NCBI GenBank assembly: GCA_947494405.1
Contig: CANLWQ010000011.1
Coordinates: 1-17,471 of the forward strand
DNA length: 17,471 nt
Source: Comamonadaceae bacterium
GTDB taxonomy: Bacteria; Pseudomonadota; Gammaproteobacteria; Burkholderiales; Burkholderiaceae_C
Direction: 5' to 3'
The number at the start of each line of letters is the position of its first letter. The stretch's first letter is position 1. Made by a program: the position numbers and the translations under genes. This document shows, piece by piece, positions 1 through 17,170 of the stretch. The notes under the pieces are model-generated. The model was given only the letters and a program-made list of their open reading frames with translations, searched no databases and was not told where the DNA came from.

Positions 1-1077
1 AGGCCGCACTGTCCTCTTGGATTCCTTCACAATTTCAAAATCTCCATCGGCCCTGGATCTGCCAATTCGCGAATACACCCAGCAATGGTTGTTATCTGGA
101 TCGATTCGAACACGGCCTTGGGGCGCCTCAACTTCCATGCCACGCAATACTTTGAGTAGACTGTCTGTGTGAACGTCATCTGCTTCGATCAGCGCTTTGG
201 CAAACAGCATAACTTGAAAATAAGCGGATTCCCAGCATTGATTCACAGGGACTTCCCGAGTTTGGGCAGCCAATTGCTGCCAAGAGGGCATGGGGGATTG
301 CTTGAGCAAAGAAGCAAAGAACGGGGCCGCAGTGAAGTGATCGGCTCTGGCAAATGGCTGCATGATCGCCAACTCAGCCTCGGAGGTGGTCAAACTGGCA
401 ATCGGCAACGAAAGTGGATTTAAACCTGCTTGTGCATATGTTTCGTACAGTGCAGCGGTAGACGAACCCACCACGGTTGAAAAAATAAAGTCTGGTTTGC
501 AGGCCGCAATATCATCAACCACCGGTCTGAATTCTGCATGGGAAGCATCCATAGGAAGGTAATGCTCACCCATGATTTTTCCGCCAAAGCCGTTGACCAT
601 GTCTTTCATGATCCGGTTGGACTCGTAAGGGTAAACATAGTCTGAGCCAATCAAATAACAATTTTTTCCAAACTTGGAGAACATGAACTCCGCCAAAATA
701 ATGATGTTTTGATTGGGACACGCGCCGGTATAAATCACATTGGGTGAAAACTCAAAACCCTCATACAAGGTGGGATAAAAAAGCAGTTTGTTGTGTTTCT
801 CAATCACCGGAACCACCGACTTACGGCTGATAGATGTGTAACAACCAAAGATCACTCCCACCCCCTGCTCGGTGATCAACTTTTCACTCATGGAAGAAAA
901 AAGATAGGGATCGGATTGTGGATCCATACAAAAAGGCTGGATTTCTAAACCGTAAGTTGAAAGCAAAGTATTGGCCTCATCAATCGCCAGCAAGCTTGCA
1001 TTCAACTGGGTTTTCTCAATCACAGAGGTAGCACCTGTTTGCGAAAAAAGTACGCCCACAGGAATAACGTTCTTCAT
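1..1077 (-). CDS. amiC: AmiC-type cytoplasmic amide sensor (3' end cut by window edge)
   Basis: The reading frame is open from the ATG at 1077 to the left edge, giving 359 codons with the C-terminus missing. It begins MKNVIPVGVLFSQTG without a signal peptide, as expected for the cytoplasmic regulator AmiC rather than an exported binding protein. The periplasmic-binding-protein type I fold is recognisable. Motifs lining the amide pocket in Pseudomonas AmiC are kept: CYTS (residues 79-82), YPTLYEG (101-107) and a GSDYVYP stretch. In P. aeruginosa, AmiC holds the ANTAR antiterminator AmiR inactive until an amide binds. The start overlaps the preceding VWA gene by 4 bp (ATGA), so it is the last visible gene of the amide operon. 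amiR would be expected just beyond the left edge, which I cannot see. P. aeruginosa AmiC is about 385 residues, so little of this gene is missing. Confidence 0.88.
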   Translation of the reverse strand, partial: MKNVIPVGVLFSQTGATSVIEKTQLNASLLAIDEANTLLSTYGLEIQPFCMDPQSDPYLFSSMSEKLITEQGVGVIFGCYTSISRKSVVPVIEKHNKLLFYPTLYEGFEFSPNVIYTGACPNQNIIILAEFMFSKFGKNCYLIGSDYVYPYESNRIMKDMVNGFGGKIMGEHYLPMDASHAEFRPVVDDIAACKPDFIFSTVVGSSTAALYETYAQAGLNPLSLPIASLTTSEAELAIMQPFARADHFTAAPFFASLLKQSPMPSWQQLAAQTREVPVNQCWESAYFQVMLFAKALIEADDVHTDSLLKVLRGMEVEAPQGRVRIDPDNNHCWVYSRIGRSRADGDFEIVKESKRTVRP

Positions 1078-2702
1078 GGAAAGCTCTTTCTTATTTTTTT
1101 AAATACAGTGCGCATAGCCAAATCTATATTGGCAGCCTCACAAAATACAGTGTGCGACAAGCCGAAGATTCTCTGACAAATTTGAGCCTGAGAAGCGCCT
1201 ATTTTCAAACACATCACGCTCAGGCCTTCTTCCCTCAACTGAGCCACTGCAAATTGGCTGTCTTGGCACAAATAATCTTCGCAGGGGCAATCAATATCGC
1301 TGGGGACACCATCTGTCAAAACCAAGACCATGGGTTGCTGTAAACGGCTGGCACACAGACTGCTCATATGTCGCAGAGCAGCACCCAGTCGGGTGGAATA
1401 AGCTGCTTGCAAACGTTGTAATTCTCGTTGCTGCGTGTGGGCCCAAGGTGACACAAAATCTTTGTGCAGAGTGACGCTGACATGGTCTTTTGTATTAGAG
1501 TGAAAACTCGAAACAGCAAATGGAATGCGCGCTGATTGAAAAAAATCAGCCAAATAGCCAACTGCTTTTTTCTCTAAATCGAGAATGCTGGTGAAACTGC
1601 CCGCAATCCGGTCATTGGCAGATTCAGATGCGTCTATCAGCACCATCACGCCCGCGCTCAATTGCTGGCGTTGCCACTGCAGGAAAATATTTTCATCCGA
1701 TGATATATGGCAGCGTAAGTCAATATTGCGCTCTATGGCTTTGTCCAACCACAGTTGTTCACTGGCTTCAACTGAAGACTTGAACTCACCACGCATGGCT
1801 CGCCTGCGACGAGTTTTCAAGTTCGACGTATGGGCCGCACGAAGGGGAATACGCTGCAAGCCAGAGGCTGGCAACAACCCCAAATGATTGACCGTAACGA
1901 CAGCCTTGTTCAAGGTCTGCTTTGCCTCATCCCATTCGTCATAGTAGAAAGTCAGTTTTTCTTGTTTGGGTGGTGTGTCAGGATCAGAGGGCGAAGAGGT
2001 TCTTGAATGGGAAACCGTTTCCTTGATTTTCTGTTCAGCAGACGCATCGGTCCAAAGAATAGAGTTGTCATCGCGGTAAGCAGGCCAAACCGCATATTTT
2101 GTGTGGTCAAACCGGTAACGCATTTGTCCCAAGTCATTGGCCAAAATTGAGCCGGCTTCGCGCAGTGCTGCAAACCCACCGCCGCTGCTTAAAGCCTGTT
2201 CATACATAGCCAGCGCTTTGCCGCACCAATAGTCTTCATAGACATTGTGTCTGCGGTTTAAACAAACAGATAATTTAGCCAACTGCGTTTCCACGCCACC
2301 AATACCCAATGCCGCGTCCCTGTTGATACGCGAGGCAAATACGGCACTCATACCTTCCATCTCTTCGCCCATCAAACGCTCCACCCGCTCATCTTCCAGC
2401 AAAGAGATAACGGCCAACGACAGATGTTTGAATTTACCTACCGGCTGAAAAAAAGCCGAGTACTTTAAATGGGCTTTGGCATGCGCCACCATGCACAGCA
2501 AATCCACGGGTTCATAGCTGCCGTGTAAAACGCCTGAAAGCTGCTGCGACAAACTGTGCGGCAAAGACAAGCCAAAAGGTGTAATAGCCAAACGCTGTTG
2601 TTGTTGGCTCCGGTCCACAGAAACGACTGGCAAGCTTTGCTCAGACTGTTGCAACCCACGCAAGACGGATTCAAGCCATTGATCAGCAATCACTGTGGCC
2701 AT
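1074..2702 (-). CDS. CbbO/NorD-type von Willebrand factor A domain protein
   Basis: This 542-residue protein has a C-terminal VWA domain. The MIDAS motif DASES is at residues 357-361, a threonine in a STRLGAALRH stretch follows near 437, and LTDGVPSDID lies around 462-471. These match the CbbO/NorD family. The N-terminal half contains a LLEDERVE segment (about 101-108) also typical of NorD-like proteins, and the middle is hydrophilic. The family partners with CbbQ/NorQ AAA+ ATPases to remodel or activate an enzyme: Rubisco for CbbQO, nitric oxide reductase for NorQD. The AAA+ partner is encoded immediately upstream (10-bp gap) and the amiC-like gene overlaps the stop by 4 bp. No clear Shine-Dalgarno precedes the ATG, so coupling to the upstream gene is likely. 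Its client here is unknown. Confidence 0.85.
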   Translation of the reverse strand: MATVIADQWLESVLRGLQQSEQSLPVVSVDRSQQQQRLAITPFGLSLPHSLSQQLSGVLHGSYEPVDLLCMVAHAKAHLKYSAFFQPVGKFKHLSLAVISLLEDERVERLMGEEMEGMSAVFASRINRDAALGIGGVETQLAKLSVCLNRRHNVYEDYWCGKALAMYEQALSSGGGFAALREAGSILANDLGQMRYRFDHTKYAVWPAYRDDNSILWTDASAEQKIKETVSHSRTSSPSDPDTPPKQEKLTFYYDEWDEAKQTLNKAVVTVNHLGLLPASGLQRIPLRAAHTSNLKTRRRRAMRGEFKSSVEASEQLWLDKAIERNIDLRCHISSDENIFLQWQRQQLSAGVMVLIDASESANDRIAGSFTSILDLEKKAVGYLADFFQSARIPFAVSSFHSNTKDHVSVTLHKDFVSPWAHTQQRELQRLQAAYSTRLGAALRHMSSLCASRLQQPMVLVLTDGVPSDIDCPCEDYLCQDSQFAVAQLREEGLSVMCLKIGASQAQICQRIFGLSHTVFCEAANIDLAMRTVFKKIRKSFP

Positions 2703-2712
2703 GGCTGGAAAA

Positions 2713-3555
2713 TCACATGTGAACTGCAGCCATCACCAGTGGCAACAAAGCCAGCAAGCTTGCTCTGATGGTGGGTTCATCCGTCACAGGGTCTATCAAT
2801 GCAGATTCCAAAAGAATTTGGTGACCCGACTTTTGCGACATCAACTTAGCGGCATGGATCAACATGCGGGTAGACACACCTTCAAACAAACCGCTGCCGG
2901 CGAGTTTGCGCGAACTCGCACCAAAATTTGCAAGCGCCCGAGCAAGCGCCGAAGTACATCCAGACTCACTGGCAATGATGTGTTGTTCCTGTTCAATCGC
3001 AGGGTAGTCAAACCGCACGGCCACAAACCGCTGCTTGATCGATTCCTTCAAGTCGCGCATCACGCTTTGATAGCCGGGGTTGTAAGACACCACCAGCATG
3101 AAATGTGCAGGTGCTTTCAAGACTTCATTGGTCTTGTCAATAAACAGTTGCCGACGATGGTCAGCCAACGCATTCAACACAACCAGGGCTTCTTGCCTAG
3201 CCTCTATCACTTCATCCAAATAACAAATACCACCTTGCCTGACAGCCTGCGTCAGTGGGCCATCTATCCATGGGGTCTCGTTTCCTTTGAGGATATATCT
3301 GCCCACCAAATCGCTGGCACTGGTGTCTTCATTACAAGCGACCGTCCACATGGGCAACTTCAGTTGTTGCGCCATGTACTCGACAAATCGTGTTTTCCCG
3401 CATCCGGTAGGGCCCTTGATGAGCAACGGTAGATGATGATCGAACGCCTGACGGAAAACCAGTTCTTCGTCACCTAGCGGATGGTAGGAAACAGTCAAAG
3501 GGAAATCACCGGTGCGGGGTGGATTGATTGGGGATGCCCGCAATAGGTGCTTCAT
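2713..3555 (-). CDS. CbbQ/NirQ/NorQ-type MoxR AAA+ ATPase
   Basis: With the start chosen here the protein has 280 residues. It shows Walker A GPTGCGKT (48-55), Walker B ICYLDE (110-115), a sensor-1 asparagine in SYNPGYQ (about 157-163), an arginine in IKQRF and the CbbQ_C-like [11 protein letters not shown] stretch. The frame is open up to 3639. I chose the ATG at 3555 because a GGGAACGG Shine-Dalgarno lies just before it, the longer version would overlap amiE by 134 bp, and CbbQ/NirQ proteins start only shortly before the Walker A region. Even so it overlaps the amidase 3' end by 50 bp. The P. aeruginosa amidase operon also encodes an ATPase (AmiB) after amiE, so this is probably its positional counterpart. 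I infer that it works with the downstream VWA protein. Confidence 0.85.
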
Positions 3556-4543
3556 CCGTTCCCGGCGTAGAACGGGTAATGGATTCAACCATTTTGCGCG
3601 TACCTTCTGGGTCATTGATCCATTTGGAGTAGAACTCAAACGGACATGCCGCTACACCGTTGGCGTCTTCACCCGAATTGATTTTTCCGGTGTAGCCACG
3701 GTGCAGTAACTTGTACAAATGGTTTTGTGACTGCATGGTGCGTCTTGCATCGCGAATCAAACTGACAGAGAGTTCAGCGTACTGAATACCCATATCCTCT
3801 TCGCCACATTCGCCAAGCGTGCGGCCATCAAAACCAACAATAGCTGAGTGACCGAAATAAGAATACACACCATCAAAGCCGGATGCATTGGCAACCGCAA
3901 CGTAGCAGTTGTTCATCCATGCCATGGCTTTAGCCACAATCACTTGTTGATCTTTGGCTGGATACATATACCCTTGGCAACGCACAATCAACTCAGCGCC
4001 GCGCATAGCGCAATCGCGCCAGATTTCAGGGTAGTTGCCATCATCACAAATGATGAGACTGATCTTCATACCTTTAGGTCCATCGGACACATAAGTGCAG
4101 TCGCCGGGATACCAGCCTTCGATGGGCACCCAAGGCATGATCTTGCGGTACTTCTGCACGATTTCACCTTTGTCGTTCATCAGAATCAAGGTGTTGTAAG
4201 GCGCTTTTTTCGGATGTTCTTCGTGACGTTCACCAGTTAAAGAGAACACGCCCCAGACCTTGGCCTTGCGGCAAGCGGCCGCAAAAATTTCGGTTTCTTC
4301 ACCAGGAACTGTTGCGGCAGTGTCGTACATCTCTTTAGAGTCATACATGATGCCGTGGGTAGAGTATTCGGGAAAGATCACCAGATCCATGCCGGGCAAG
4401 CCTTGCTTCATACCCACTAACATGTCCGCGATTTTGCGCGCGTTATCCAAAACCTCAGCCTTGGTATGCAAACGTGGCATTTTGTAGTTGACGACTGCAA
4501 CGCCAACACAATCCTTGCTGCTTGAAATATCACCGTGTCTCAT
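3506..4543 (-). CDS. amiE: Aliphatic amidase (acylamide amidohydrolase)
   Basis: This 345-residue protein begins [10 protein letters not shown] and follows Pseudomonas AmiE (about 346 residues) closely through most of its length. The nitrilase-superfamily catalytic triad falls at the canonical positions Glu59 (FPEY), Lys134 (KYRK) and Cys166 (IICDDGN). AmiE hydrolyses short aliphatic amides such as acetamide and propionamide to the carboxylic acid and ammonia in the cytoplasm. The last 50 or so residues diverge from the Pseudomonas protein. A strong AGGAG Shine-Dalgarno precedes the ATG, 20 bp after the ABC transporter genes, so uptake and hydrolysis appear to be co-transcribed. Formamidase (AmiF) is the nearest alternative, but the N-terminus and triad context are of the AmiE type. 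Confidence 0.97.
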
Positions 4544-4563
4544 GAAAGTTCTCCTGTGAATGG

Positions 4564-5259
4564 TTAAATTGTTAAAAACGCCTTAACGGCATCTACGTCC
4601 CCTGCCCCTTTGCCGCAGGTATGCACGACCGCACCGCGTTCCATCACTACCAAACGGTCGGCCACACTGACAGCAAAACTCAACACCTGCTCAGACAACA
4701 GAACGGTGCAATCGCTTGCCTGTTGCAACTTGATCAATGCAGTTGCAATTTCCTTGATGATGGAAGGTTGAATGCCCTCAGTGGGTTCATCCAATATCAA
4801 CAGGCTTGGCCCGGCTGTCAGGGCGCGGCCAATCGCAACCATCTGTTGCTGCCCACCGGATAAATTTCCCGCTTTGCGATCCTTCATTTGTGACAGCACC
4901 GGAAACAAGTCATACACCAGATCAGGGATTTTGTTGAGACGGCCGGTATTGAGGGAAGTCAACAGGTTTTCTTCCACGGTTAACTGACCGAACAACAACC
5001 TGCCTTGTGGCACATAGCCAATGCCTAAGCGTGCGCGCTCAAACACCGGCATGCGAGTGATGTCTTGCCCCATGAATTCAATACGCCCCGAATGCACGGG
5101 CAACAATCCCACAAGAGTTTTGAAAAAAGTCGACTTGGACATGCCATTTTTTCCAACCACGGCCACTGCTTCATGGGCTTGCATTTCGAAAGACACACCG
5201 TGCAAAACAATGCTTTGTCCATAACCTGCCATCAAGTCTGTTGTCTGTAGCAAAGTCAT
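4564..5259 (-). CDS. urtE: UrtE-type ABC transporter ATP-binding protein
   Basis: This is a 231-residue LivF/UrtE-family nucleotide-binding subunit. The signature [15 protein letters not shown], Walker [15 protein letters not shown] and the H-loop-region LLSEQ stretch are present. [12 protein letters not shown] is a hallmark of UrtE. The Walker A reads GKNGMSKST near residue 37: the usual glycine before the lysine is serine (codon TCC), which is unusual but need not abolish ATP binding. It starts 3 bp after the upstream ATPase gene. Together with the other ATPase and two permeases it would form an importer for urea or short-chain amides. The symbol is a family name; the amidase-linked context suggests amides as substrate. 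Confidence 0.9.
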
Positions 5260-5262
5260 TCC

Positions 5263-6000
5263 CTAATCCCCTAAGTAGACTTCGCGCACGCGAGGATCTG
5301 CTTGAATTTGTTCTATCAAGCCTTCACACAAAATAGCCCCTTGGTGCAAGACAGTGACCTTGGCTGAAAGCTTCTTCACAAAATCCATATCGTGCTCAAT
5401 CACCACAATGGCTTGAATGGCTGAAATACGCTGAATCAAATCGACTGTCTGGTCACGCTCTTTCAAACTCATGCCCGCCACAGGTTCATCCAGCAACAGC
5501 AATTGAGGATGCTGCACCAACAGCATCGCTATTTCCAACCACTGTTTCTGCCCGTGGCTGAGGGTTCCCGCAGCTACATTCAGCGAGTTGACCAAGTTGG
5601 TGGTCTTAGCTACTTCAATAATTTCTTGATTGAACTGATCATCACTGTTGAAGATGGCAGACAACATGGTCTGGCCTCTGGGTACAGAAATTTGTATGTT
5701 CTGGTAAACCGTTAAATCATCGTAGACAGAGGGCGTCTGAAATTTTCTTCCCATGCCCATGCGGGTACGTTTGAATTCGCTCTCTCTGTCAATGCGTTGA
5801 CCTTTGAAAAATATACTGCCTTGGGTGGCAGGTGTCTTGCCGCAGATCGCATCAAGCAGTGTGGTTTTACCCGCGCCATTCGGTCCAATGATGCAACGGA
5901 TTTCACCCTTTTGTATGGTCAGATTCACATGGTCAATGGCCACAAAGCCGCCAAAGCTGACCACCAAATCACGAACCTCCATCAATGACTGATTGCTCAT
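5263..6000 (-). CDS. urtD: UrtD-type ABC transporter ATP-binding protein
   Basis: This is a 245-residue LivG/UrtD-family ATPase. It shows Walker A GPNGAGKTTLL, signature LSHGQKQWLEIAM and Walker B LLLLDEPVAGMS, followed by VVIEHDMDFV containing the H-loop histidine. The LSHGQKQWLEI form with DEPVAGM is characteristic of UrtD. All nucleotide-binding motifs are canonical, unlike the partner ATPase. The start codon overlaps the stop of the upstream permease (ATGA, 5997-6000), implying translational coupling. It energises the importer encoded around it. The symbol is a family name, and substrate specificity is set by the binding protein, which looks amide-type. Confidence 0.92.
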   Translation of the reverse strand: MSNQSLMEVRDLVVSFGGFVAIDHVNLTIQKGEIRCIIGPNGAGKTTLLDAICGKTPATQGSIFFKGQRIDRESEFKRTRMGMGRKFQTPSVYDDLTVYQNIQISVPRGQTMLSAIFNSDDQFNQEIIEVAKTTNLVNSLNVAAGTLSHGQKQWLEIAMLLVQHPQLLLLDEPVAGMSLKERDQTVDLIQRISAIQAIVVIEHDMDFVKKLSAKVTVLHQGAILCEGLIEQIQADPRVREVYLGD

Positions 6001-7046
6001 TGCTTGTTACTTTCAACTTTGGATTGCTTTTTAAACATTCCAACTAAACCTGCCATGCCCTGTGGAAGCACTGCCGTGACGAGTAAGAACAACCCACCGA
6101 GGAAAAATAACCAGCCCTGAGGAAATTCCTCTGACAAAGCTGACTTCAGCCACCCAATGGAAAAAGCCGCAAAAATCGCGCCCAAAACAGATGTGCGACC
6201 ACCGAAAGCTGCATAAACAATCATCTCCACTGAGGCGACAGCACCCACCAGTTGAGGTGTGATCAATCCGGTGAACAATACAAACATCGCGCCGCCTATG
6301 GACGCCAGCACACAAGACACAGACAAAGTGGCTGCTTTGATCCAAGCAGTGTCATAGCCGGAGAACCGAACCCTATCTTCTCTGTCTCTGATTGCTATCA
6401 AAACTTTGCCGTAACGGGATGAAACAAGGTACTGCACCACTGCCGTACATACCGCTAACAATCCCAGCATCAGGTAATACAAGCGCGTCCGTGCCGCATC
6501 TGAAGCCACATCCCAACCCAGCAAAGTGCTGAAGTCGGTGATGCCATTGGCCCCGCCCGTGCCTCCCTGGCTGCCGATGATCAAGACCGTCAAAGTCAGA
6601 GACAAGGCAAGAGTCAGGATTGCAAAATACACACCGCTGACGCGCTTTTTAAAAATCAAATAAGTGAACGGAAATGCCACCAATACAGGCAGTACGAATA
6701 TGCACAGCAAAGTGAAGCTCAAACTTTGAAATGGCAACCAGGCCAAAGGCAGTTGCTCTACGCTGCTCCAAACCATAAAGTCGGGCAGTTCAGGACTAGA
6801 AGCCTCCAGTTTTAAAAACATGGCCAAGGCATACGCACCAATGCCAAAGAAGATTCCTTGCCCCAAACTCAGAATGCCGCAATAGCCCCAGCTGAGCACA
6901 ATGCCTAAAGCCACAAAAGCAAATGACAGGTATTTGCCATAAAGCGGCACTCTGAATTCCGGCGAGCCCAGAGGCAATAACAAAAGCAAACCGAAGATGA
7001 TGATGAAATTCACCCACCAACTTTTACGCAAAAAATCTTTTGGCAT
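5997..7046 (-). CDS. urtC: UrtC-type ABC transporter permease
   Basis: This 349-residue polytopic membrane protein belongs to the LivM/UrtC permease family. It has about ten hydrophobic segments, a YFAILTLALSLTL stretch, a GGxGGANGITDF loop, an internal RDREDRVRFSGYD coupling-helix region typical of the family, and a C-terminal FPQGWLFFLGGLFLLVT segment like UrtC. The start at 7046 follows a GAGGAG Shine-Dalgarno located in the end of the preceding permease gene, leaving a 1-bp gap between the two. It ends overlapping the next ATPase gene by 4 bp. The protein is one half of the heterodimeric inner-membrane channel. Confidence 0.92.
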   Translation of the reverse strand: MPKDFLRKSWWVNFIIIFGLLLLLPLGSPEFRVPLYGKYLSFAFVALGIVLSWGYCGILSLGQGIFFGIGAYALAMFLKLEASSPELPDFMVWSSVEQLPLAWLPFQSLSFTLLCIFVLPVLVAFPFTYLIFKKRVSGVYFAILTLALSLTLTVLIIGSQGGTGGANGITDFSTLLGWDVASDAARTRLYYLMLGLLAVCTAVVQYLVSSRYGKVLIAIRDREDRVRFSGYDTAWIKAATLSVSCVLASIGGAMFVLFTGLITPQLVGAVASVEMIVYAAFGGRTSVLGAIFAAFSIGWLKSALSEEFPQGWLFFLGGLFLLVTAVLPQGMAGLVGMFKKQSKVESNKQ

Positions 7047-7047
7047 A

Positions 7048-7950
7048 TCAACTCCTCACTTTGGGAGAAAACAGGCCATTCGGGCGGTAGTAAAGAATCA
7101 CCACCACGATAAGCATTAATAAAACTTTGGCATAAGAACTGGTCGTCATGAACTCAAACGTGGTTTGCAGTTGCGCAATGATGAAACTAGACAACGCCGT
7201 ACCCATGATGCTGGCTACACCACCAAACACGACCACGATGAAGGTATCGATGATGTAGAGCTGGCCGGTCCCGGGATTGGTAGAACCGATCATGGTGAAC
7301 ACACTGCCGGCAATCCCAGCCAATCCGCTTCCAAGCGCAAAGGTGTACATGTCGACTTGACGTGTATTGATACCGACTGTTTCAGCAATTGCGCGGTTTT
7401 GCGTGATGGCGCGAACTTTCAAACCCATGCGAGTTTTAAAAAACAGCAAGTACACAGCCGCGGCCACTATCAACGTAAGCACAATAATGAATATGCGATT
7501 CAACGGAATTTGTACGCCGCTAAACGGCTCAACAGCACCATCCAGCCATGAGGCCATTGGAATAGTGACCTCTTGCGGGCCAAACACTGTGCGGTAAGTT
7601 TGTTGCAATATCAAACTCAAACCCCAGGTCGCCAGCAAGGTATCTAGTGGGCGGTTGTAAAACCAGCGAACCACCGACCACTCTAAGAACATACCGAATA
7701 AAAAGGTAACTAAAAATGCAATCGGAATAGCGAACAAAATATAGATGTCCACCGAATCAGGAAAGACATTTAAAAATACATTGGCAACCATGAAGGTGAC
7801 GTAGGCTCCTAAAGCCATCAGTTCGCCATGCGCCATATTGATGACGCCCATCAAACCAAAAACAATGGCCAGACCCAATGACATCAGCAGCAATATTGCC
7901 GTATAGCTGACACCGCTGAAGAGTTGCATCCAAAAAATTTCAAGACTCAC
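7048..7950 (-). CDS. urtB: UrtB-type ABC transporter permease (short form)
   Basis: This LivH/UrtB-family inner-membrane permease shows INMAHGELMALGAY near the N-terminus, the coupling region RAITQNRAIAETVGI, FGGVASIMGT and YYRPNGLF at the C-terminus. An upstream in-frame ATG at 7992 exists, but I chose the GTG at 7950. It has a strong GAGGAG Shine-Dalgarno at 7-nt spacing, and the extra residues of the longer form are encoded by an RNA hairpin and are not membrane-like. The resulting 300-residue protein lacks the long N-terminal extension that, from memory, many proteobacterial urea UrtB proteins carry (about 500 residues). This hints at a non-urea substrate. The gene abuts the second permease gene. 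Confidence 0.9.
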   Translation of the reverse strand: MSLEIFWMQLFSGVSYTAILLLMSLGLAIVFGLMGVINMAHGELMALGAYVTFMVANVFLNVFPDSVDIYILFAIPIAFLVTFLFGMFLEWSVVRWFYNRPLDTLLATWGLSLILQQTYRTVFGPQEVTIPMASWLDGAVEPFSGVQIPLNRIFIIVLTLIVAAAVYLLFFKTRMGLKVRAITQNRAIAETVGINTRQVDMYTFALGSGLAGIAGSVFTMIGSTNPGTGQLYIIDTFIVVVFGGVASIMGTALSSFIIAQLQTTFEFMTTSSYAKVLLMLIVVVILYYRPNGLFSPKVRS

Positions 7951-7966
7951 AGGGACTCTCCTCGGG

Positions 7967-7990
7967 GGCCCACCGGTTACCCGGCAGGCC
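7967..7990 (-). promoter_or_regulatory. Intercistronic RNA stem-loop with GUAA tetraloop
   Basis: On the minus-strand transcript, arms GGCCUGCCGG and CCGGUGGGCC pair over 10 bp (two of them G-U) and are closed by the GNRA-type loop GUAA. It lies in the 64-nt gap between the binding-protein gene and the first permease gene. There is no U-tract after it, so it is not an intrinsic terminator. Such hairpins commonly protect the 3' end of the upstream cistron from exonucleases and raise binding-protein levels over permeases; that role is inferred here. Confidence 0.6.
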
Positions 7991-8014
7991 ATCCGAATGC
8001 TTCACTTCAATAAA

Positions 8015-9205
8015 TTACAGCTTAGGGAACGGGTTAGGTTCAGTCAGTTGACTTTCGTGAACGATGTCAAACTGCCCGTCTGCACGTGCGCGTCCAATAC
8101 GGACTTTTTTCCACACATGGTGATTGGTTTTATGAATTCTCACCAGACCCTCTGGCGCTTTAAATTCAATTTCTGAGGAGGCAGCAATCACCTTTGCTAC
8201 GTCGAATGACTTGGCTTTTTCAACAGCCAATTTCCATAAATAGACAGCGTTATAGCCGCATTCCATGGGGTCACCCACAACACGGTCTTTGCCGTACTTG
8301 GCTTTGATGGCCGCCACAAATTTTTCGTTTTCAGGTGACTTGATGCTTTGGAAATAACCCATGCAAGCGTAATAGCCCACTGCATTGTCTTTGCCAATGC
8401 CGTCAATTTCATTTTCAGAAACCACGGTGGACAACAGCTTTTGCTTGGTGCCATCAAGGCCGGCGGCCTTTAACTGCTTGTAGAAAGCGACGTTAGAGCC
8501 ACCCACCACGGTGGAATAAATCCAGTCAGGTTTGGCTGCCTTGATTTTATTGATGATGGAAGAAAACTCGGTATGTCCCAATGGGGCATATTCTTCACCG
8601 ACCACGCTAGAACCCAGACGGGTAGCAGTGGCTTTGGCGATTTTGTTGCAAGTGCGTGGATAGATGTAATCCGAGCCGACAAAGAAGAATGTTTTTCCTT
8701 GCTGCTTGGCCATCCACTCCATCGCTGCAACCACGGATTGCGTGGCTTCCTGCGATGTATAAATGACCTGTGGATCTTCTTCCTGGCCTTCGTAATAAGT
8801 TGGGTAGTACAACAAACCCTTGTTGGCCTTGAACACAGGCAACACGGCTTTACGTGAAGCAGATGTGTAGCAACCAATCACAGCGGGCACTTTGTCTTGC
8901 TGCAATAGTTTTTTAGCTTTTTCAGCAAAAGTTGGCCAATCGCTTGCACCATCTTCGAGTACGGGAACAATTTTTTTACCCAGTACACCACCTGCGGCAT
9001 TGATCTCATCAATAGCCATTTTTTCTGCGTTCACAATGGCAGCCTCCGCCAAAGCGATGGTGCCAGACATCGAGTGCAGCAAGCCCAATTTGACCTCGTT
9101 AGCTGCCTGACTCACACTGGGCCAAAGCGCTGCGCCCGGAAGGGCTGTGGCAGCAACCAAGGTACTGCCCTTTTGTATAAACCGACGACGTGATGACAAA
9201 CTCAT
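8015..9205 (-). CDS. urtA: Tat-exported UrtA/FmdD-type amide (or urea) substrate-binding protein
   Basis: This 396-residue periplasmic binding protein has an N-terminal Tat motif SRRRFIQ (5-11), a hydrophobic core and a likely cleavage at VSQA/AN (34/35). The mature part starts VKLGLLHSMSGT, as in UrtA, FmdD and AmiC. The pocket motifs are CYTS (112-115), YPTYYEG (134-140) and GSDYIYPR (177-184). These resemble the amide sensor AmiC at the other end of the operon more than the CWTS/YPVQYEG form I associate with UrtA. I therefore infer that it binds short-chain amides and passes them to the permeases downstream. An AAGGAG Shine-Dalgarno sits 5 nt before the ATG. It is the first gene of the operon, behind a leader containing an intrinsic terminator. 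The symbol is a family name; urea binding cannot be excluded. Confidence 0.9.
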   Translation of the reverse strand: MSLSSRRRFIQKGSTLVAATALPGAALWPSVSQAANEVKLGLLHSMSGTIALAEAAIVNAEKMAIDEINAAGGVLGKKIVPVLEDGASDWPTFAEKAKKLLQQDKVPAVIGCYTSASRKAVLPVFKANKGLLYYPTYYEGQEEDPQVIYTSQEATQSVVAAMEWMAKQQGKTFFFVGSDYIYPRTCNKIAKATATRLGSSVVGEEYAPLGHTEFSSIINKIKAAKPDWIYSTVVGGSNVAFYKQLKAAGLDGTKQKLLSTVVSENEIDGIGKDNAVGYYACMGYFQSIKSPENEKFVAAIKAKYGKDRVVGDPMECGYNAVYLWKLAVEKAKSFDVAKVIAASSEIEFKAPEGLVRIHKTNHHVWKKVRIGRARADGQFDIVHESQLTEPNPFPKL

Positions 9206-9581: not shown

Positions 9582-9884
9582 ATGGAACTCACCCCCCGCG
9601 AAAAAGACAAGCTGCTGATTTTTACAGCTGGGCTGCTGGCCGAGCGCCGCAAAGCCAGAGGCTTGAAACTCAATTACCCTGAAGCAGTTGCTTATATCAG
9701 TGCAGCTGTCATGGAGGGCGCACGCGACGGCAAGACGGTGGCGCAACTGATGAGCGAAGGGCGCACCTTCCTCAACCGCGCCGATGTCATGGACGGTATC
9801 GCAGAAATGATCCCCGACATCCAAGTGGAAGCTACCTTTCCAGACGGCACCAAACTGGTGACCGTGCACCAACCCATTGTGTAA
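9582..9884 (+). CDS. ureA: Urease gamma subunit
   Basis: This 100-residue protein begins [23 protein letters not shown] and contains [22 protein letters not shown] and [22 protein letters not shown], all classic for UreA of the three-chain bacterial urease. The length is the family norm. It assembles with UreB and UreC into the (alpha-beta-gamma)3 enzyme that hydrolyses urea in the cytoplasm. The Shine-Dalgarno is weak. It is the first gene of the plus-strand urease operon. Notably, ureD, which usually sits directly upstream, is missing there. Confidence 0.98.
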
Positions 9885-9903
9885 ATTCATCAAGGAGTTC
9901 AAC

Positions 9904-10059
9904 ATGCTCAAAACCATGACTGGTTTATTTTTGGCTTTACCCGCCCTTGCGCATGAGGGGCATGGACTTCAAGACCCTCACAGCCATGTCACTGACTTGG
10001 TGGGACTGTGCATAGCTTTAGTGGTGATTGCAGCGTTTTATTGGGCAGGCCGCAAATGA
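9904..10059 (+). CDS. Small exported His-rich single-pass membrane protein between ureA and ureB
   Basis: This 51-residue protein has an ideal AAGGAG Shine-Dalgarno 6-7 nt before the ATG at 9904, and its stop overlaps the ureB start (ATGA, 10056-10059). An in-frame start at 9877 would add nine residues but overlap ureA. The N-terminus looks like a short signal peptide with an Ala-x-Ala-type site (PALA/HEGHG). Next comes a His-rich segment [12 protein letters not shown], then one hydrophobic stretch of about 19 residues ending in GRK. The AHEGHG start resembles the mature N-terminus of HupE/UreJ nickel permeases, but the rest of that protein is absent. It may bind nickel or another metal at the membrane. 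Function is unknown; that it is a real gene rests on the Shine-Dalgarno, coding coupling and topology. Confidence 0.75.
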
Positions 10060-10385
10060 GCAGCCGCTTTATTCCTGGTGAACTCATCACCGACGCAGGT
10101 CACCACGAACTCAACACCGGCAGACGCACCCACACATTGGTGGTGAAGAACAGCGGCGACCGCCCCATACAAGTGGGCTCGCACTACCACTTTGCCGAAA
10201 CCAACTCAGGCTTGCTGTTTGACCGCATTGCAGCGCGCGGCATGCGCTTGAACATCGCGTCTGGCACCGCGGTCCGTTTTGAACCAGGCCAAGAACGTAC
10301 CGTGGAATTGGTCGACTACGCCGGTACGCGAGATGTCTATGGTTTTCGCGGCGAAGTGCAAGGCGCATTGAAAGGGGGCGCGTGA
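10056..10385 (+). CDS. ureB: Urease beta subunit
   Basis: This 109-residue protein begins [15 protein letters not shown]. It contains the family core: [50 protein letters not shown] and the closing YGFRGEVQG. The frame extends upstream to 10008, but the ATG at 10056 fits the usual UreB N-terminus and overlaps the stop of the miniprotein gene by 4 bp. Its own stop overlaps the ureC start (TGATG). It is a structural subunit packed against UreC. It is a few residues longer than most UreB proteins, without a visible disruption. Confidence 0.98.
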
Positions 10386-12130
10386 TGGCGCAGATCGAAA
10401 AAAGAGCTTATGCGGAAATGTTTGGTCCCACCGTAGGCGACCGTCTGCGTTTGGCCGACACCGACCTCTTTATTGAAGTTGAAGAAGATTACACCCTGCG
10501 TGCAGGCAGCTATGGCGAAGAGGTCAAGTTTGGCGGCGGCAAAACCATACGCGACGGCATGGCGCAAAGCCAACGCACACGCAATGGCCCGTTAGGCACC
10601 GGCGCACAAGCAGGCGGAGCAATGGACTGTGTGCTCACCAACGCGCTCATCCTCGACCACTGGGGCATCATCAAAGCCGATATAGGCATCAAAAATTCGC
10701 GCATTGCAGCGATCGGCAAAGCCGGCAACCCCGACACCCAACCGGGCGTGGACATCGTCATTGGGCCGGGCACCGAAATCATTTCTTGCGAAGGCATGAT
10801 TGTTACAGCCGGCGCTATCGACACACACATCCATTTCATTGCACCTCAGCAAATCGAAGAAGCCTTGGCCAGTGGCGTGACCACCATGCTGGGCGGCGGC
10901 ACGGGCCCGGCTACTGGCACCTTTGCCACCACTTGTACGCCCGGTCCTTGGAATATCGAGCGCATGCTGCAAGCAGCTGACGCCTTTCCCATGAACTTGG
11001 GCTTTTTGGGCAAAGGCAATGCTTCCTTACCCAACTCACTGCACGAACAAATCAATGCCGGCGCTATTGGCTTGAAATTGCACGAAGACTGGGGCACCAC
11101 ACCGGCAGCCATCGACAACTGCTTGAATGTGGCCGAGGCCACCGACACCCAAGTGGCCATACACACCGACACGCTCAACGAATCTGGGTTTGTGGAAGAC
11201 ACCATCGCCGCATTCAAGGGTCGCACCATCCATACGTTTCATACCGAAGGTGCGGGCGGTGGCCATGCGCCGGATATTTTGAAAGTGGTGGGTGAAGCCA
11301 ATGTGCTGCCTTCCTCCACCAACCCGACACGGCCCTACACCATCAACACGCTCGATGAACACGTCGATATGCTGATGGTGTGCCATCACCTTGATGCGTC
11401 CATTGCGGAAGACTTGGCATTCGCAGAAAGCCGTATCCGCCGCGAAACCATTGCCGCTGAGGACATCTTGCACGACTTGGGTGCGATCAGCATGTTCTCC
11501 TCCGACTCTCAGGCCATGGGGCGGGTGGGCGAGGTCATCATGCGCTGCTGGCAAACCGCTCACAAAATGAAACAGCAACGCGGCCCACTCCCCGGTGACA
11601 GCGACAGACACGACAACGCTCGCATCAAACGCTATGTGGCCAAACTCGCCATCAACCCTGCCATTGCGCATGGCATCAGCCACGAGGTGGGCAGCATCGA
11701 GGTTGGCAAATGGGCTGACATTGTTTTGTGGAAACCGGCTTTTTTTGGTGTCAAGCCCTTCATCATCATGAAGGGTGGTTTCATCGCCATGGCCGCCATG
11801 GGCGACCCCAATGCTTCTATACCCACGCCACAACCGGTGCATTACCGTCCTATGTTTGGTGCGTTTGGTGGCGCCTTGCATCGTGGCTCACTCAGTTTTG
11901 TGTCGCAAGCCGCGCTGGCCGGCGGTGTCGGCGAGCGCTATGGTCTGCACAAAACCTTGAGCGCGGTGAAAAACATCCGTGGCATTGGCAAACGTCATAT
12001 GCTGCACAACGACTATGCGCCCCACATGGATGTCGACGCCCAGACCTATGCTGTACGTGCCGACGGCATGCTGTTGACGTGTGAACCCGCGAGTGTTCTG
12101 CCCATGGCGCAGCGCTACTTCTTGTTTTAA
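10385..12130 (+). CDS. ureC: Urease alpha (catalytic) subunit
   Basis: This 581-residue protein starts from the ATG at 10385; a GTG one codon upstream (10382) is an alternative. All nickel-site and catalytic residues are seen: HIH (148/150), the carbamylated-lysine motif GLKLHEDWG (Lys231, His233), [10 protein letters not shown] (His260), [15 protein letters not shown] (His286), the flap VCHHLD with Cys-His, and [12 protein letters not shown] (Asp374). Numbering is shifted by 14 relative to Klebsiella UreC because of two short N-terminal insertions, around LRAGS and in the glycine/alanine-rich stretch before MDCVLTNA. It ends MAQRYFLF as usual. The enzyme hydrolyses urea to ammonia and carbamate. 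The gene is intact and presumably functional once matured by UreDEFG. Confidence 0.99.
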
Positions 12131-12154
12131 TAATTGGGGTCAGATTCCAATTAA
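12131..12154. repeat. REP-like 24-bp repeat, left copy (inverted relative to 12646-12669)
   Basis: TAATTGGGGTCAG followed by ATTCCAATTAA fills the gap between the ureC stop and ureE. It matches the reverse complement of the copy at 12646-12669 at 23 of 24 positions. It is also itself a stem-loop: TAATTGG and CCAATTA pair around a 9-nt loop. The GGGGTCAG core resembles dispersed REP-type elements linked to RAYT transposases, which is from memory. Confidence 0.8.
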
Positions 12155-12160
12155 ATCACC

Positions 12161-12649
12161 ATGATCCATTTCTCCAAACTCATCCGACAAGGACAGGGCT
12201 TAGCACCCGTGTTACTCAAACGCGCAACCTCAATCACCTTGGATTGGGATGTGCGGCAAAAAAGTCGCTTCGAGTCCACCGACAGCGCAGGGCGGCAAGT
12301 GGGCGTTTTTTTACAGCGCGGCCAAGTGGTGCGCGGCGGCGATGTACTGGTCGGTGACGATGGCTCGCTGCTCAAAATACAGGCCGCCCCACAAGCGGTG
12401 TTGCGCATCAGCCATTGCAGCGAACACGGCACGCTGTTTGATCTGACCCGCGCGGCTTATCACTTGGGCAATCGACATGTGCCCATCGAGTTGCAGCCCG
12501 ACCATTTGAAAATTGAACCCGACCATGTGCTGGCCGATATGCTGCGCGCCATGCACCTGATCATCCACGAGGTGCATGAAAGTTTTGAGCCAGAAAATGG
12601 CGCTTATGGCGAACACGGTGGTGGACACCACCATGGACACGAGCATTAA
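12161..12649 (+). CDS. ureE: Urease accessory protein UreE (nickel metallochaperone)
   Basis: This 162-residue protein has the N-terminal UreE peptide-binding domain (RGQVVRGGDVLVGDDGSLLKIQAAPQ context) and the C-terminal metal-binding domain with AAYHLGNRHVPIEL, including the conserved His of the dimer nickel site. It ends in a His-rich tail, GEHGGGHHHGHEH. UreE delivers nickel to the UreG/UreF/UreD-urease complex. The gene lies exactly between two inverted copies of a 24-bp repeat. The left copy replaces any Shine-Dalgarno, and the right copy supplies the TAA stop. This suggests either insertion of repeats on both sides or arrival of ureE as a bracketed module. Confidence 0.97.
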   Translation: MIHFSKLIRQGQGLAPVLLKRATSITLDWDVRQKSRFESTDSAGRQVGVFLQRGQVVRGGDVLVGDDGSLLKIQAAPQAVLRISHCSEHGTLFDLTRAAYHLGNRHVPIELQPDHLKIEPDHVLADMLRAMHLIIHEVHESFEPENGAYGEHGGGHHHGHEH

Positions 12650-12669
12650 TTGGAATCTGACCCCATTTA
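12646..12669. repeat. REP-like 24-bp repeat, right copy, overlapping the ureE stop and ureF start
   Basis: TTAATTGGAATCTGACCCC followed by ATTTA is the inverse of the copy at 12131-12154 (23/24 identical). The copy contains the ureE TAA stop (12647-12649) and, directly adjacent, the TTG (12650-12652) that is the most upstream start for ureF. It encodes the first UreF residues, ESDPI. The inner palindrome is less perfect than in the left copy. Confidence 0.8.
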
Positions 12670-13333
12670 TTTGTTTCGCTTGTTGCAGCTGGCCTCGCCG
12701 GCTTTGCCTGTGGGCGGCTTCTCCTACTCTGAGGGGATGGAGGCGGCTGTCGCCCACCAACTGGTGCACGACGAAGCTTCTGCCCAAGCTTGGCTGATCG
12801 ATCACCTGCATTTGGTGCTTTCACGCGGCGATTTGCCTGTGCTGGCCCAAGCTATTCCTGCATGGCAACAACATGATGTCGCGCAACTCAAGCAACTCAA
12901 TGACTGGGTGATGCAAACCCGGGAAACTTTTGAGATGCGTTTGCAAACCGAACAAATGGGCCGCTCTTTGTTGGTGTGGCTGCGCAACCAAACCGATGCA
13001 GATAGCGCACGCATGCAAAGCTGCGAAAACCTCCCCCCCACTTGGCCGCTGGCGTTTGCCTTGGCTTTGTCGACCCATGGTGTTCCCATGCGCGAGGGCG
13101 TGTGGACCGCGTCTTTCGGTTGGGCAGAAAACATGGTGCAAGCCGCCATCAAAGCTGTACCTTTGGGTCAACTCAGCGGACAACGTATATTGGCGGCGTT
13201 GACGACTGACATACCTGAGGCTGTCGATCATGCGATGAAGTTAGCTTCACATGAACGCCAAGCTTTTAGCCCGCGTCTGGCCATTTTGTCAGCGCGTCAC
13301 GAAACCCAGTACTCCAGACTCTTTCGATCATGA
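12650..13333 (+). CDS. ureF: Urease accessory protein UreF
   Basis: This 227-residue protein has the UreF signature [24 protein letters not shown] right at the N-terminus (residues 11-34) and the helical all-alpha pattern of the family. No ATG precedes the signature; the first in-frame ATG would remove it. The start must therefore be non-ATG: TTG at 12650, directly after the ureE stop, or TTG at 12671. The region 12650-12669 is part of the 24-bp repeat, so the repeat probably replaced the original N-terminus and start signals. UreF forms the scaffold with UreD and acts as a GTPase-gating partner of UreG. The stop overlaps the ureG ATG (ATGA). Confidence 0.95.
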
Positions 13334-13989
13334 CCACACCTTTGCACCACATTGCCAACCGCAGCAAAAAACTCCCCCCCCTGCGTGTAGGCATTGGCGG
13401 CCCCGTTGGCTCGGGCAAAACCACTTTGCTTGAAATGCTGTGCAAAGCCATGCGTGACAACTACGATTTGATAGCCATCACCAACGACATTTACACCAAA
13501 GAAGACCAACGCCTCTTGACCATCAGTGGCGCTTTAGCCGCTGAACGCATCATGGGCGTTGAAACCGGCGGCTGTCCCCACACCGCCATCCGCGAAGATG
13601 CATCCATCAATTTAGAAGCCATAGACCGCATGCTGGAAAAATTTCCCAATGCCGATGTGGTGTTTGTAGAAAGCGGTGGCGACAATTTGGCCGCCACGTT
13701 CAGCCCCGAACTCAGCGACTTGACGATTTACGTGATTGATGTGGCCGCTGGCGAAAAAATTCCGCGCAAGGGGGGGCCGGGCATCACCAAAAGTGATTTA
13801 TTCATCATCAATAAAACCGATCTCGCGCCTCATGTAGGCGCGAATTTAGACATCATGCAATCGGACACCGAGCGTATGCGAGCCAGCCCCCAAGGTGTGA
13901 AACCCTTTGTGATGACCAACCTGAAAACCCAAACGGGACTGATGGATGTGGTGAAGTTCATCGAAACAAAAGGAATGTTGTTGCTATGA
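13330..13989 (+). CDS. ureG: Urease accessory GTPase UreG
   Basis: This 219-residue SIMIBI-class GTPase shows P-loop GPVGSGKT (24-31), the metal-binding GCPH motif (81-84), [15 protein letters not shown] (114 on), [16 protein letters not shown] and the guanine-specificity motif NKTDLAP. UreG couples GTP hydrolysis to insertion of nickel into urease, with UreE, UreF and UreD. It starts in the ureF stop (ATGA) and ends in the start of the hydrolase gene (ATGA, 13986-13989). The whole E-F-G-hydrolase block therefore looks translationally coupled. Confidence 0.99.
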
Positions 13990-14993
13990 AATTTTGCAAA
14001 CCATGGCTTGTAGGTCTCTCGGTGTTATGGGCTATCGGTGCGCACGCTCAAGAACAGATGTATGGCGCAGAGCTCCAAGGTTTTGACTACCCCGCACCGG
14101 TGCAGAAATTCAACTTCAGCTCGCAGCAGCAGGCCGTGCACATGGCGTATTTGGATATACAACCGGCCAAAGCAAATGGCCATGTGGTTGTGTTGCTGCA
14201 TGGAAAAAACTTTTGCGCCGCCACTTGGCAATCCACCTACAAGGTATTGCAAGGCTACGGTTTTCGCGTCATCGTTCCCGATCAAATTGGTTTTTGCAAG
14301 TCCAGCAAACCCAGCGCTTACCAATACAGTTTTCAGCAACTGGCGCACAACACCCGTGCACTGCTGAGTTCATTGGGCATTGCGCAAGCCACTGTGATCG
14401 GTCACTCCACCGGCGGCATGTTGGCCACCCGCTATGCGTTGATGTTTCCCGAATCCGTCAAGCAACTGGTGATGGTCAACCCCATTGGTTTGGAAGATTG
14501 GAAAGCCATGGGCGTGCCCAGCCTCAGCATTGACCAGTGGTACCAGCGCGAATTGCAAGTCACCGACGAGCGAATTCGCAACTATGAGCGCAGCACTTAT
14601 TACGTGAATGAATGGAAGCCCGAGTACGAGCCCTGGGTGCAAATGTTGGCGGGCATGTTTCGCGGACCCGACAAGAAAACCGTGGCTTGGCATTCGGCCT
14701 TGATTTACGACATGATTTTTAACCAACCCGTGTTCTACGAGTTTGCACTGCTCAAAGTTCCCACCTTGCTGTTGATAGGTGAAAAAGACAATACCGCTAT
14801 TGGCAAAGATTTGGTGAGTGCTGAGCTTAAGGCGCGCATGGGTCTTTACCCCGAGTTGGCCAGACGCACCGCCAAACTCATTCCAGGCGCCACACTGGTG
14901 CTGTTCCCCGACCTAGGTCATGCGCCACAAATGCAAAACCCCATGCGGTTTCACACCGCCTTGGTGAACAACTTGCTGGCTTTGGAAAATTGA
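13986..14993 (+). CDS. Secreted alpha/beta-fold hydrolase
   Basis: This 335-residue protein has a signal peptide (Lys-containing start, hydrophobic core, AHA/QEQ cleavage near residue 21). The alpha/beta hydrolase core shows VVLLHG (68-73), the nucleophile elbow GHSTGG (Ser141), an acidic residue in LLLIGEKD (Asp268) and the catalytic His312 in DLGHAP. Only two cysteines are left in the mature chain (Cys77, Cys104). Substrate unknown; esterase, lipase-like or peptidase activity cannot be distinguished. Its ATG overlaps the ureG stop, so it appears to be the last gene of the urease transcript, which is not a standard urease component. It ends one base before a convergent gene, without room for a terminator. 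Confidence 0.88.
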
Positions 14994-14994
14994 T

Positions 14995-15675
14995 TCAGCG
15001 CTGCACCCAGCCGCCACACACGGGAAACACCTGCCCCACAAAGCAGTCTGCTTTGTCTGAGCACAGATAGGCCGCAAACTCTGCGTCTTCTTCTGCTTTC
15101 ACCAGTCGCCCCAAAGGAACTTCGCGTTGAAGTCGTTCGGCAAAACGTGGGTTGGCCTGCACTTCGGGGGGAAAGTAGGTAGGGTTCTCCACAAAATTTT
15201 GTGCAATTGCATTGACTTGGATATTCAATGCAGCCAACTCCACACCCACCGCTTGCACCCATGCCAGTTGCGCACCACGTGCAGCGCTGTAGCTGGATGC
15301 GCGCTTCATGCCGCGCAAGGCACTGGCACTGCCCATGACCAAAAATTTGCCCCTGCCACGTGCTTTCATTTGCGGCATCACTTCGCGCAACAACCTAGGC
15401 AAAGGGTGAACCATGACGTCGAACACCTGGGCCCACTCCGCATCTTCCACCTCTGCTGCAGGTGTAGCGGGTGCGGTCATCGCCAAGTTGGCGACCAAGA
15501 CATCGATATGCCCATGGCTTTGCACCAACTCTCTTGAGGCATTGGGGAGATGCAGCTGTCTTTGGTCGGCCAGCACAGTCGCCCCGTGAGACGCCAGCAC
15601 TTGGCATAAAGCCGGGCCCATGAAATCTTGCGCTTGGGTGACCACGATTCGCAAACCTTGCAACAAGCCACTCAT
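14995..15675 (-). CDS. Halohydrin dehalogenase-like protein of the SDR fold
   Basis: With the ATG at 15675 (AGGTG Shine-Dalgarno, 6-nt spacing) the protein has 226 residues; a GTG at 15684 is possible. It has the short-chain dehydrogenase fold but not its key motifs. The NAD-binding TGxxxGxG is replaced by TQAQDFMG (13-20), and the catalytic YxxxK is YSAAR (Tyr129, Arg133), with Ser116. These fit T-x4-F-x-G and S-x12-Y-x3-R, the two motifs used to define halohydrin dehalogenases. The stretch NFVENPTYFPP (160-170) and C-terminal GQVFPVCGGW also resemble that family. Such enzymes convert vicinal haloalcohols to epoxides and open epoxides with cyanide, azide or nitrite. A generic inactive SDR is the alternative. 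It is the last of four same-strand genes. Confidence 0.75.
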   Translation of the reverse strand: MSGLLQGLRIVVTQAQDFMGPALCQVLASHGATVLADQRQLHLPNASRELVQSHGHIDVLVANLAMTAPATPAAEVEDAEWAQVFDVMVHPLPRLLREVMPQMKARGRGKFLVMGSASALRGMKRASSYSAARGAQLAWVQAVGVELAALNIQVNAIAQNFVENPTYFPPEVQANPRFAERLQREVPLGRLVKAEEDAEFAAYLCSDKADCFVGQVFPVCGGWVQR

Positions 15676-15684
15676 AGACAGCAC

Positions 15685-16020
15685 CTATTCGGGCAAATCA
15701 TCTTCAAGGTTTTCAGATACCAAAGGTATGAGCTCTGGCTTGGGTGTGCGCTTGCCATGCTTGGCCAGAATTTCCACATAAACAGATGTGGCCTGTGTTT
15801 TGGCCAGCGCATCAATGGCCGTCACCAAAGCCGCCACATGCACCACTTCAGCCGCATCGGCTTGCAAACCGCATTTGCAATCGAAGTCCCAAAAATCAAC
15901 GCCCTCGGGTAAATCACGGCGACGCTCGCGTTTGAGGTATTTACGTACCTCGTTTTTGACGGCATCGAGCACCCGGTCTGGATGGCGGCCCTCGATGTGC
16001 AGGGGGAAATTTTTTCTCAT
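15685..16020 (-). CDS. Small conserved protein of unknown function (DUF6172-like)
   Basis: This 111-residue soluble, highly charged protein begins MRKNFPLHIEGRHPDRVLDAVKN. It is followed by a basic YLKRERRR stretch, GVDFWDFDCKCG with two cysteines, and an acidic C-terminus. I recognise it as a conserved proteobacterial family of about 100 residues, which I believe is DUF6172; the number is from memory. I chose the ATG at 16020, where the conserved family N-terminus begins, over a GTG at 16044 that overlaps the upstream methyltransferase gene. It lies 7 bp after that gene and 9 bp before the dehalogenase-like gene. No function can be assigned. Confidence 0.75.
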   Translation of the reverse strand: MRKNFPLHIEGRHPDRVLDAVKNEVRKYLKRERRRDLPEGVDFWDFDCKCGLQADAAEVVHVAALVTAIDALAKTQATSVYVEILAKHGKRTPKPELIPLVSENLEDDLPE

Positions 16021-16027
16021 AGGGTGA

Positions 16028-17170
16028 TTATGCGACCCGCACACCCAAGCGCCACAAAGAGGTCAGCTCTTGCTGCCTGGCCGCATGCAAAGCATCTGAG
16101 GCGTCGTGTACCTTGGCGTGGCTCGGGCGTATGTCATCGCGCCCCAGCACCTGCAAGCCTGCATCGGCTATCCACTGCAACAGTTGTGCGCGTGGTCGCA
16201 AGTTCAAATGTTCGGCCAAGTCTGACACGATCAACCAAGCCTCCCCGTCTGGCGTCAAGTGGGCTGCCACACCCGCGATGAAGGTTCGCAACATGCGACT
16301 GTCGGGGTCGTAAATCGCATGCTCAAGCAAAGAAGTGGCTTTGCCTGGCAGCCAAGGGGGATTGCACACAATCAGAGGCGCCAAGCCTTGAGGGAATACA
16401 TCGCACAGTTGTAATGTGGCCCTGTCCGCCAACTTGAGTCGTTGCAAATTGTCTTGAGCACAATTCAAAGCACGTTCACTGTTGTCGGTGGCAATCACTT
16501 GCTTGACACCACGCATAAGCAACAAAGCCGCCACCACACCCGTGCCCGTGCCAATGTCAAACGCCAAGTCCAAACTGGGCAGGGGTGCTTTGGCCAAGAG
16601 TTGCAAATACTCGTTTCTGACGGGTGAAAAAACCCCGTAGTGGGAATGGACTGTCAAACCCTCTTGAAGTCCCACATCCACATACACGCCCTTGCGTTGC
16701 CACTCAAAAGCACTGAGGACCCCCAGCAATTCGCGCAGTGACACCACCCTTGCCTCACCCGTGGCCGGTCCCCATGCATGCGTCAAAGCCTCATGTACCT
16801 CGGGCGCACGGCGTAAACCGATGCGGTAGTCGCCTTGTATGGTCAACACCAACATGGACAAAATCCGTGCGCGTTGCGCTTGCGCCATGCGGTAAGCATG
16901 AAAGGCTTGGGGCATGGCCGCTTTAGCGGTCTGGGGTTTGGCGGCTTGGGCTTTGGCTGCAAGCGCCACCCTGCGCGTCAAGGCTTGCAGTATTTGCCGC
17001 GCCTGCGCAAAGTCACCCTGCCAGTGCATAGCAGTGCCTGCACACGCCAATCTGTAAGCTGTGTCTGCGTTGATGCTGTCATCCACTGCCTCAAACCTTT
17101 TGGGTGCGGCCGCACCACTGGACGAATACCAGTGGTCTTTCCATGCATGGCTGTCCAGTGAATCAGGCAA
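16028..17170 (-). CDS. Class I SAM-dependent methyltransferase (NPPW-type)
   Basis: The C-terminal half carries a methyltransferase domain with motif I DIGTGTGVV (about 205-213), an acidic loop IATDNSERAL and motif IV NPPWLP (about 270-275). NPPW/Y is typical of enzymes that methylate the nitrogen of adenine, guanine or glutamine (HemK/RlmG-like). The N-terminal half is a family-specific region with an Ala/Lys/Gln-rich linker near residues 70-90. The frame is open to 17320 but that part overlaps the conserved end of the upstream hydantoinase gene. I place the start at TTG 17170, just before the recognisable KDHWYSSSG segment. An ATG at 17209 is the other possibility, overlapping by 47 bp. Substrate unknown. 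Confidence 0.8.
   Translation of the reverse strand: MPDSLDSHAWKDHWYSSSGAAAPKRFEAVDDSINADTAYRLACAGTAMHWQGDFAQARQILQALTRRVALAAKAQAAKPQTAKAAMPQAFHAYRMAQAQRARILSMLVLTIQGDYRIGLRRAPEVHEALTHAWGPATGEARVVSLRELLGVLSAFEWQRKGVYVDVGLQEGLTVHSHYGVFSPVRNEYLQLLAKAPLPSLDLAFDIGTGTGVVAALLLMRGVKQVIATDNSERALNCAQDNLQRLKLADRATLQLCDVFPQGLAPLIVCNPPWLPGKATSLLEHAIYDPDSRMLRTFIAGVAAHLTPDGEAWLIVSDLAEHLNLRPRAQLLQWIADAGLQVLGRDDIRPSHAKVHDASDALHAARQQELTSLWRLGVRVA

Follow-up and report, generated by a model that had tools for sequence, protein, structure and literature searches.

Background and candidate gene

Halohydrin dehalogenases (HHDHs) are useful biocatalysts that are often concealed under the labels of short-chain dehydrogenases/reductases (SDRs). 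A passage of a 2018 review calls them rare (PMC6922532). According to sections of a 2016 review, two motifs, T-x4-F/Y-x-G and S-x12-Y-x3-R, served as the filter through which 37 HHDH genes were newly found, a selected 19 of them proved active, and HheD19 to HheD38 are 57-95% identical to verified D enzymes (PMC4989007). The first motif is described, in excerpts of two papers, as part of the nucleophile pocket of known HHDHs (PMC4989007, PMC11976700). Here we examine a gene in a 17,471-nucleotide stretch of DNA from a Comamonadaceae bacterium (contig CANLWQ010000011.1, assembly GCA_947494405.1; hereafter the window) that very probably encodes an HHDH of subtype D (HheD), a protein of SDR fold without a nicotinamide site, as judged from sequence comparisons and a structural model. 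The gene and its diagnostic segments are as follows.

14995..15675, minus strand: probable HheD-type HHDH gene, 226 amino acids (identity to HheD2 and to an HheD8 mutant, tree and fold)
15616..15639, minus strand: motif 1, TQAQDFMG (T13-x4-F18-x-G20), residues 13-20 (exact pattern match)
15277..15330, minus strand: catalytic motif S116-x12-Y129-x3-R133 (exact match; aligns with the Ser, Tyr and Arg of HheA, HheB, HheC and HheD2)
15166..15198, minus strand: NFVENPTYFPP loop, residues 160-170 (placed by alignment; presumed role in halide binding)

The open reading frame runs on the minus strand from an ATG at 15675 to a stop codon at 14997-14995 and is open throughout.

Sequence motifs

A sequence-only reading of the window, which named no strand, had singled out the two motifs and the NFVENPTYFPP stretch, and all three are present, both motifs as exact matches. 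That reading had also held that the NAD-binding glycine motif is replaced. A pattern scan returned no match to G-x3-G-x-G or TG-x3-G in the query protein, and in an alignment with HHDHs and with SDRs of the same genome TQAQDFMG occupies the place of the SDR glycine motif. The TGxxx[GA]xG motif of NAD(P)-dependent classical SDRs is likewise absent from the query, as is their catalytic Tyr-x3-Lys, Lys being replaced by Arg133. The loop is aligned with GPNYLH.. of HheC, GPNFFNNPTYFP of HheA2 and QNFVDNPTYFPE of HheD2, and the Asn of NFV matches the Asn of HheC GPNY and HheA2 GPNF, a position taken by Gly in the majority of the ten SDRs.

These ten other SDR matches of the bacterium's own genome provide the local reference. 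None contains motif 1 or S-x12-Y-x3-R, with motif 1 unjudgeable in L082, a fragment whose N-terminus is missing. Tyr-x3-Lys is found in all ten, and TGxxx[GA]xG in eight, the others being L082 and L090.

Comparison with known halohydrin dehalogenases

In a sequence search of the PDB the top scores went to 7b73 (304 bits), 8xxb (284), HheB (180), 6a41 (125) and HheA (85). Structure 7b73 belongs to HheD2, which is presented as a halohydrin dehalogenase in PMC9629495; the title of 8xxb names an HheD8 triple mutant with chloride. HheD2 shares 65% BLASTP identity with the query over 219 amino acids, has the same motifs and is its best structural match, but differs in about a third of its residues and carries the loop NFVDNPTYFPE in place of NFVENPTYFPP. 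The HheD8 mutant is 60% identical over 222 amino acids, a value that may be slightly higher for the wild type since the crystallized chain has three engineered changes, and its loop is identical to that of the query. HheB (4zd6) follows at 44% over 223 amino acids, with Tyr instead of Phe in motif 1 and the loop QHW..NKEYFWP. HheA, HheA2 and HheC (4z9f, 1zmo and 1pwx) have the two motifs and the Ser-Tyr-Arg set of the query, but their identities are 29.9%, 29.5% and 31.1% (the last over 180 amino acids only), HheA and HheA2 are 18 and HheC 28 residues longer, and all three lie on a separate branch of the tree described below.

By these alignments the query is markedly nearer to the D enzymes than to the other subtypes. 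The sequence-only reading had expected a probably divergent member; since the query is 65% identical to HheD2 and the reviewed range for HheD19 to HheD38 is 57-95%, it falls within the ordinary D range and reads as a regular member of an already described subgroup, one more sequence for a known subtype. The length of 226 residues given in that reading stands, but it does not set the protein apart as short, HheB chains having 227 amino acids and the HheD8 chain 233.

Phylogenetic position and predicted structure

The tree was built from the query, 12 D-type relatives, HheD2, the HheD8 mutant, HheB, HheA, HheA2, HheC, 6a41 and the ten own-genome SDRs. HHDHs were separated from the SDRs with support of 100/99, and the query was placed, also at 100/99, inside the branch formed by D enzymes and HheB. 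A comparison of this kind with known Hhe enzymes and ordinary SDRs had been proposed from the sequence, and it put the query among the HHDHs and outside the SDRs. In the predicted monomer model, the best fold matches were HheD2, HheB and HheD8. Identity to HheD2 and HheD8, the tree, the model and the two published motifs together bear out the earlier proposal that a real HHDH lies under an SDR label.

Several observations weigh against this assignment or its precision. HheE, HheF and HheG are absent from the tree; no more than 22% of bootstrap trees grouped the D sequences without HheB, which does not separate D from B; the bootstrap values were not quite settled; and the tree program gave a warning about the meeting of long branches, the split between SDRs and HHDHs being one of the places concerned. 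Model confidence is also reduced in important segments, with block means of 71 and 63 for residues 111-130, values below 50 at 119-123, and a mean of 61 for residues 161-170 of the pocket loop. Finally, in pairwise comparisons with PDB chains HheC (63 bits) and HheG (60) scored below actinorhodin ketoreductase (72) and Escherichia coli FabG (66), so that on the HheC/HheG side pairwise scores alone would not separate the query from SDRs.

Proposed mechanism

The enzyme most likely interconverts halogen-alcohols and epoxides without a cofactor, the chemistry and residue roles being those we infer from known family members. Ser116 and Tyr129 would bind the substrate oxygen, and Arg133 would lower the pKa of Tyr129. 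Tyr129 would then take the hydroxyl proton, and the resulting alkoxide would displace the vicinal halide to form the epoxide. The expelled halide would sit in a pocket lined by T13, F18 and G20 and by the NFVENPTYFPP loop. In the reverse direction, the epoxide could be opened by halide, azide, cyanide or nitrite.

Occurrence of D-type genes

In a protein search that scored 8000 candidates and gave 7898 homologues, the 120 top-ranking ones share 73-94% identity with the query. In this set, with the query included, both motifs, the first as T-x4-F-x-G, are present in 118 of 121 proteins, more than chance would give; each of the other three is missing one motif, and a 193-residue fragment is among these three. 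From a genome collection we kept the best 80 of 149 relatives (63-95% identity), which with the own locus gave 81 loci; both motifs are encoded in all 80 when Phe or Tyr is allowed. At a threshold of E 1e-50 or better, 299 genomes sampled from the window's family yielded a D-type gene in 39, own genome included; each of the 39 gave a single match, partial in two cases, and the three other genomes of the window's own genus listed in that sample gave none. A phylum-wide sample had it in 4 of 398 genomes (own included), all four in the same family. Its distribution is patchy, yet within the family the gene is not rare, and the earlier description of a rare enzyme class does not hold for subtype D there, with 39/299 genomes as opposed to 4/398 across the phylum. 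In this family and in related proteobacteria, such genes are readily found.

Records titled as metagenome-assembled genomes of Rickettsia typhi, Akkermansia muciniphila and Klebsiella pneumoniae (L002, L020 and L044) carry D-type genes of 93, 70 and 69% identity. These titles look like wrong labels.

Gene neighbourhood and native role

The genes next to the HHDH gene in the window are listed here.

15685..16044, minus strand: gene for a DUF6172 protein, directly upstream of the HHDH gene (in 7 of 81 loci, nearest relatives only)
13986..14993, plus strand: alpha/beta hydrolase gene, convergent with the HHDH gene (GHSTGG elbow; in 8 of 81 loci, close relatives only)

Nine bases separate the DUF6172 stop codon from the HHDH ATG. 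Genes at the 81 loci were called with a simple scoring scheme of our own and clustered into families at 30% identity and 60% length; the wrong gene was taken as HHDH at L007 and L050 in the family counts, where only positions were corrected. Besides the HHDH itself no family occurred in more than 8 of the 81 loci, and those that came closest belong to the nearest relatives, counts that are lower bounds because many loci are short contigs and because of the clustering limits. In 30 of the 72 loci with both neighbours present, no same-strand neighbour lies within 100 bases. A Pfam scan covered 121 of 126 listed neighbours of at least 110 amino acids, from a list without L001-L004, L006 and L008; among the 25 of 137 families listed, the commonest was Glyoxalase (5 of 121). 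Upstream genes vary (DUF6172, glyoxalase, MazG-like, cupin and DUF2164) among those inspected, which included a selection of 20 small genes from the 121 neighbours. Immediately upstream of the D-type gene at L011, L014 and L016 there is a small gene of the glyoxalase family, the match at L016 being much weaker.

Since neighbours differ between loci, the surroundings point to no pathway, and in the sampled loci they do not show what D-type enzymes natively do. A literature search on the physiological role of HHDHs found no paper. We would suggest, tentatively and at somewhat under even odds, that D-type HHDHs, which many betaproteobacteria carry in single copy and with no constant degradation partner, serve a native role rather than the breakdown of industrial haloalcohols; such a role may be, for example, the making or removal of a natural halohydrin or epoxide metabolite.

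A related explanation, one we hold plausible but would not favour, is that the protein has the HHDH fold and naturally carries out a different cofactor-free reaction on a metabolite, one of epoxide, alcohol or anion chemistry, and dehalogenates only as a side activity. In the test tube it is compatible with the HheD assignment. The family counts over the 81 loci and the occurrence in 39 of 299 genomes agree with it, as does the Pfam scan, which returned no epoxide-hydrolase-specific family among those listed and the broad Abhydrolase_1 in 3 of 121 neighbours; sections of the 2016 review state that other physiological functions cannot be excluded and that only two HHDH genes then known lay with an epoxide hydrolase (PMC4989007). 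Against it, the motif residues are unchanged, the same sections class proteins 57-95% identical to verified D enzymes as HHDHs (PMC4989007), and a missing neighbour pattern, with many loci on short contigs, says nothing positive.

Far less probable is a haloalcohol catabolic unit in which the adjacent alpha/beta hydrolase acts as an epoxide hydrolase. The hydrolase gene does abut the HHDH gene and occurs in 8 of 81 loci, all of close relatives, and epoxide hydrolases are numerous among the weak PDB matches of its product. However, the two genes are convergent and therefore not one transcript, the GHSTGG elbow points to a serine nucleophile, the start of the protein reads by eye like a signal peptide, and among its PDB matches 4f0j, 'Probable hydrolytic enzyme', leads by a wide margin at 454 bits, the next being an epoxide hydrolase at 56. 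Epoxide hydrolases use an Asp nucleophile. We rejected an operon with this hydrolase on gene orientation and the serine elbow.

Database labels and the wider window

Among the best 120 homologues, source names include 'SDR family oxidoreductase' and '2-keto-3-deoxy-L-fuconate dehydrogenase', as had been anticipated for automatic annotation. That the protein is an ordinary NAD(P)-dependent SDR of the kind these names imply is highly improbable and was rejected: Pfam adh_short_C2 and adh_short match it above cut-offs and 2-keto-3-deoxy-L-fuconate dehydrogenases are among the Foldseek matches, but the Gly-rich motif is missing, Arg stands where the catalytic Lys is expected, the tree places it outside the SDRs, and all 25 NCBIfam models listed (of 182 matched) score below their curated cut-offs.

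The remainder of the window holds genes of other kinds. Positions 9582-13989 of the plus strand carry what we take, from the translations, to be a urease cluster (ureA, B, C, E, F and G). No ureD reading frame was seen beside it within the window, and the single UreD match of the genome (G000) lies on another contig (C93:387-995). On the minus strand at 1-9205, translations suggest putative urea ABC transporter genes, an amidase/nitrilase-like gene and a pair encoding AAA and von Willebrand proteins; these precede the urease genes, which are followed by the alpha/beta hydrolase, HHDH and DUF6172 genes.
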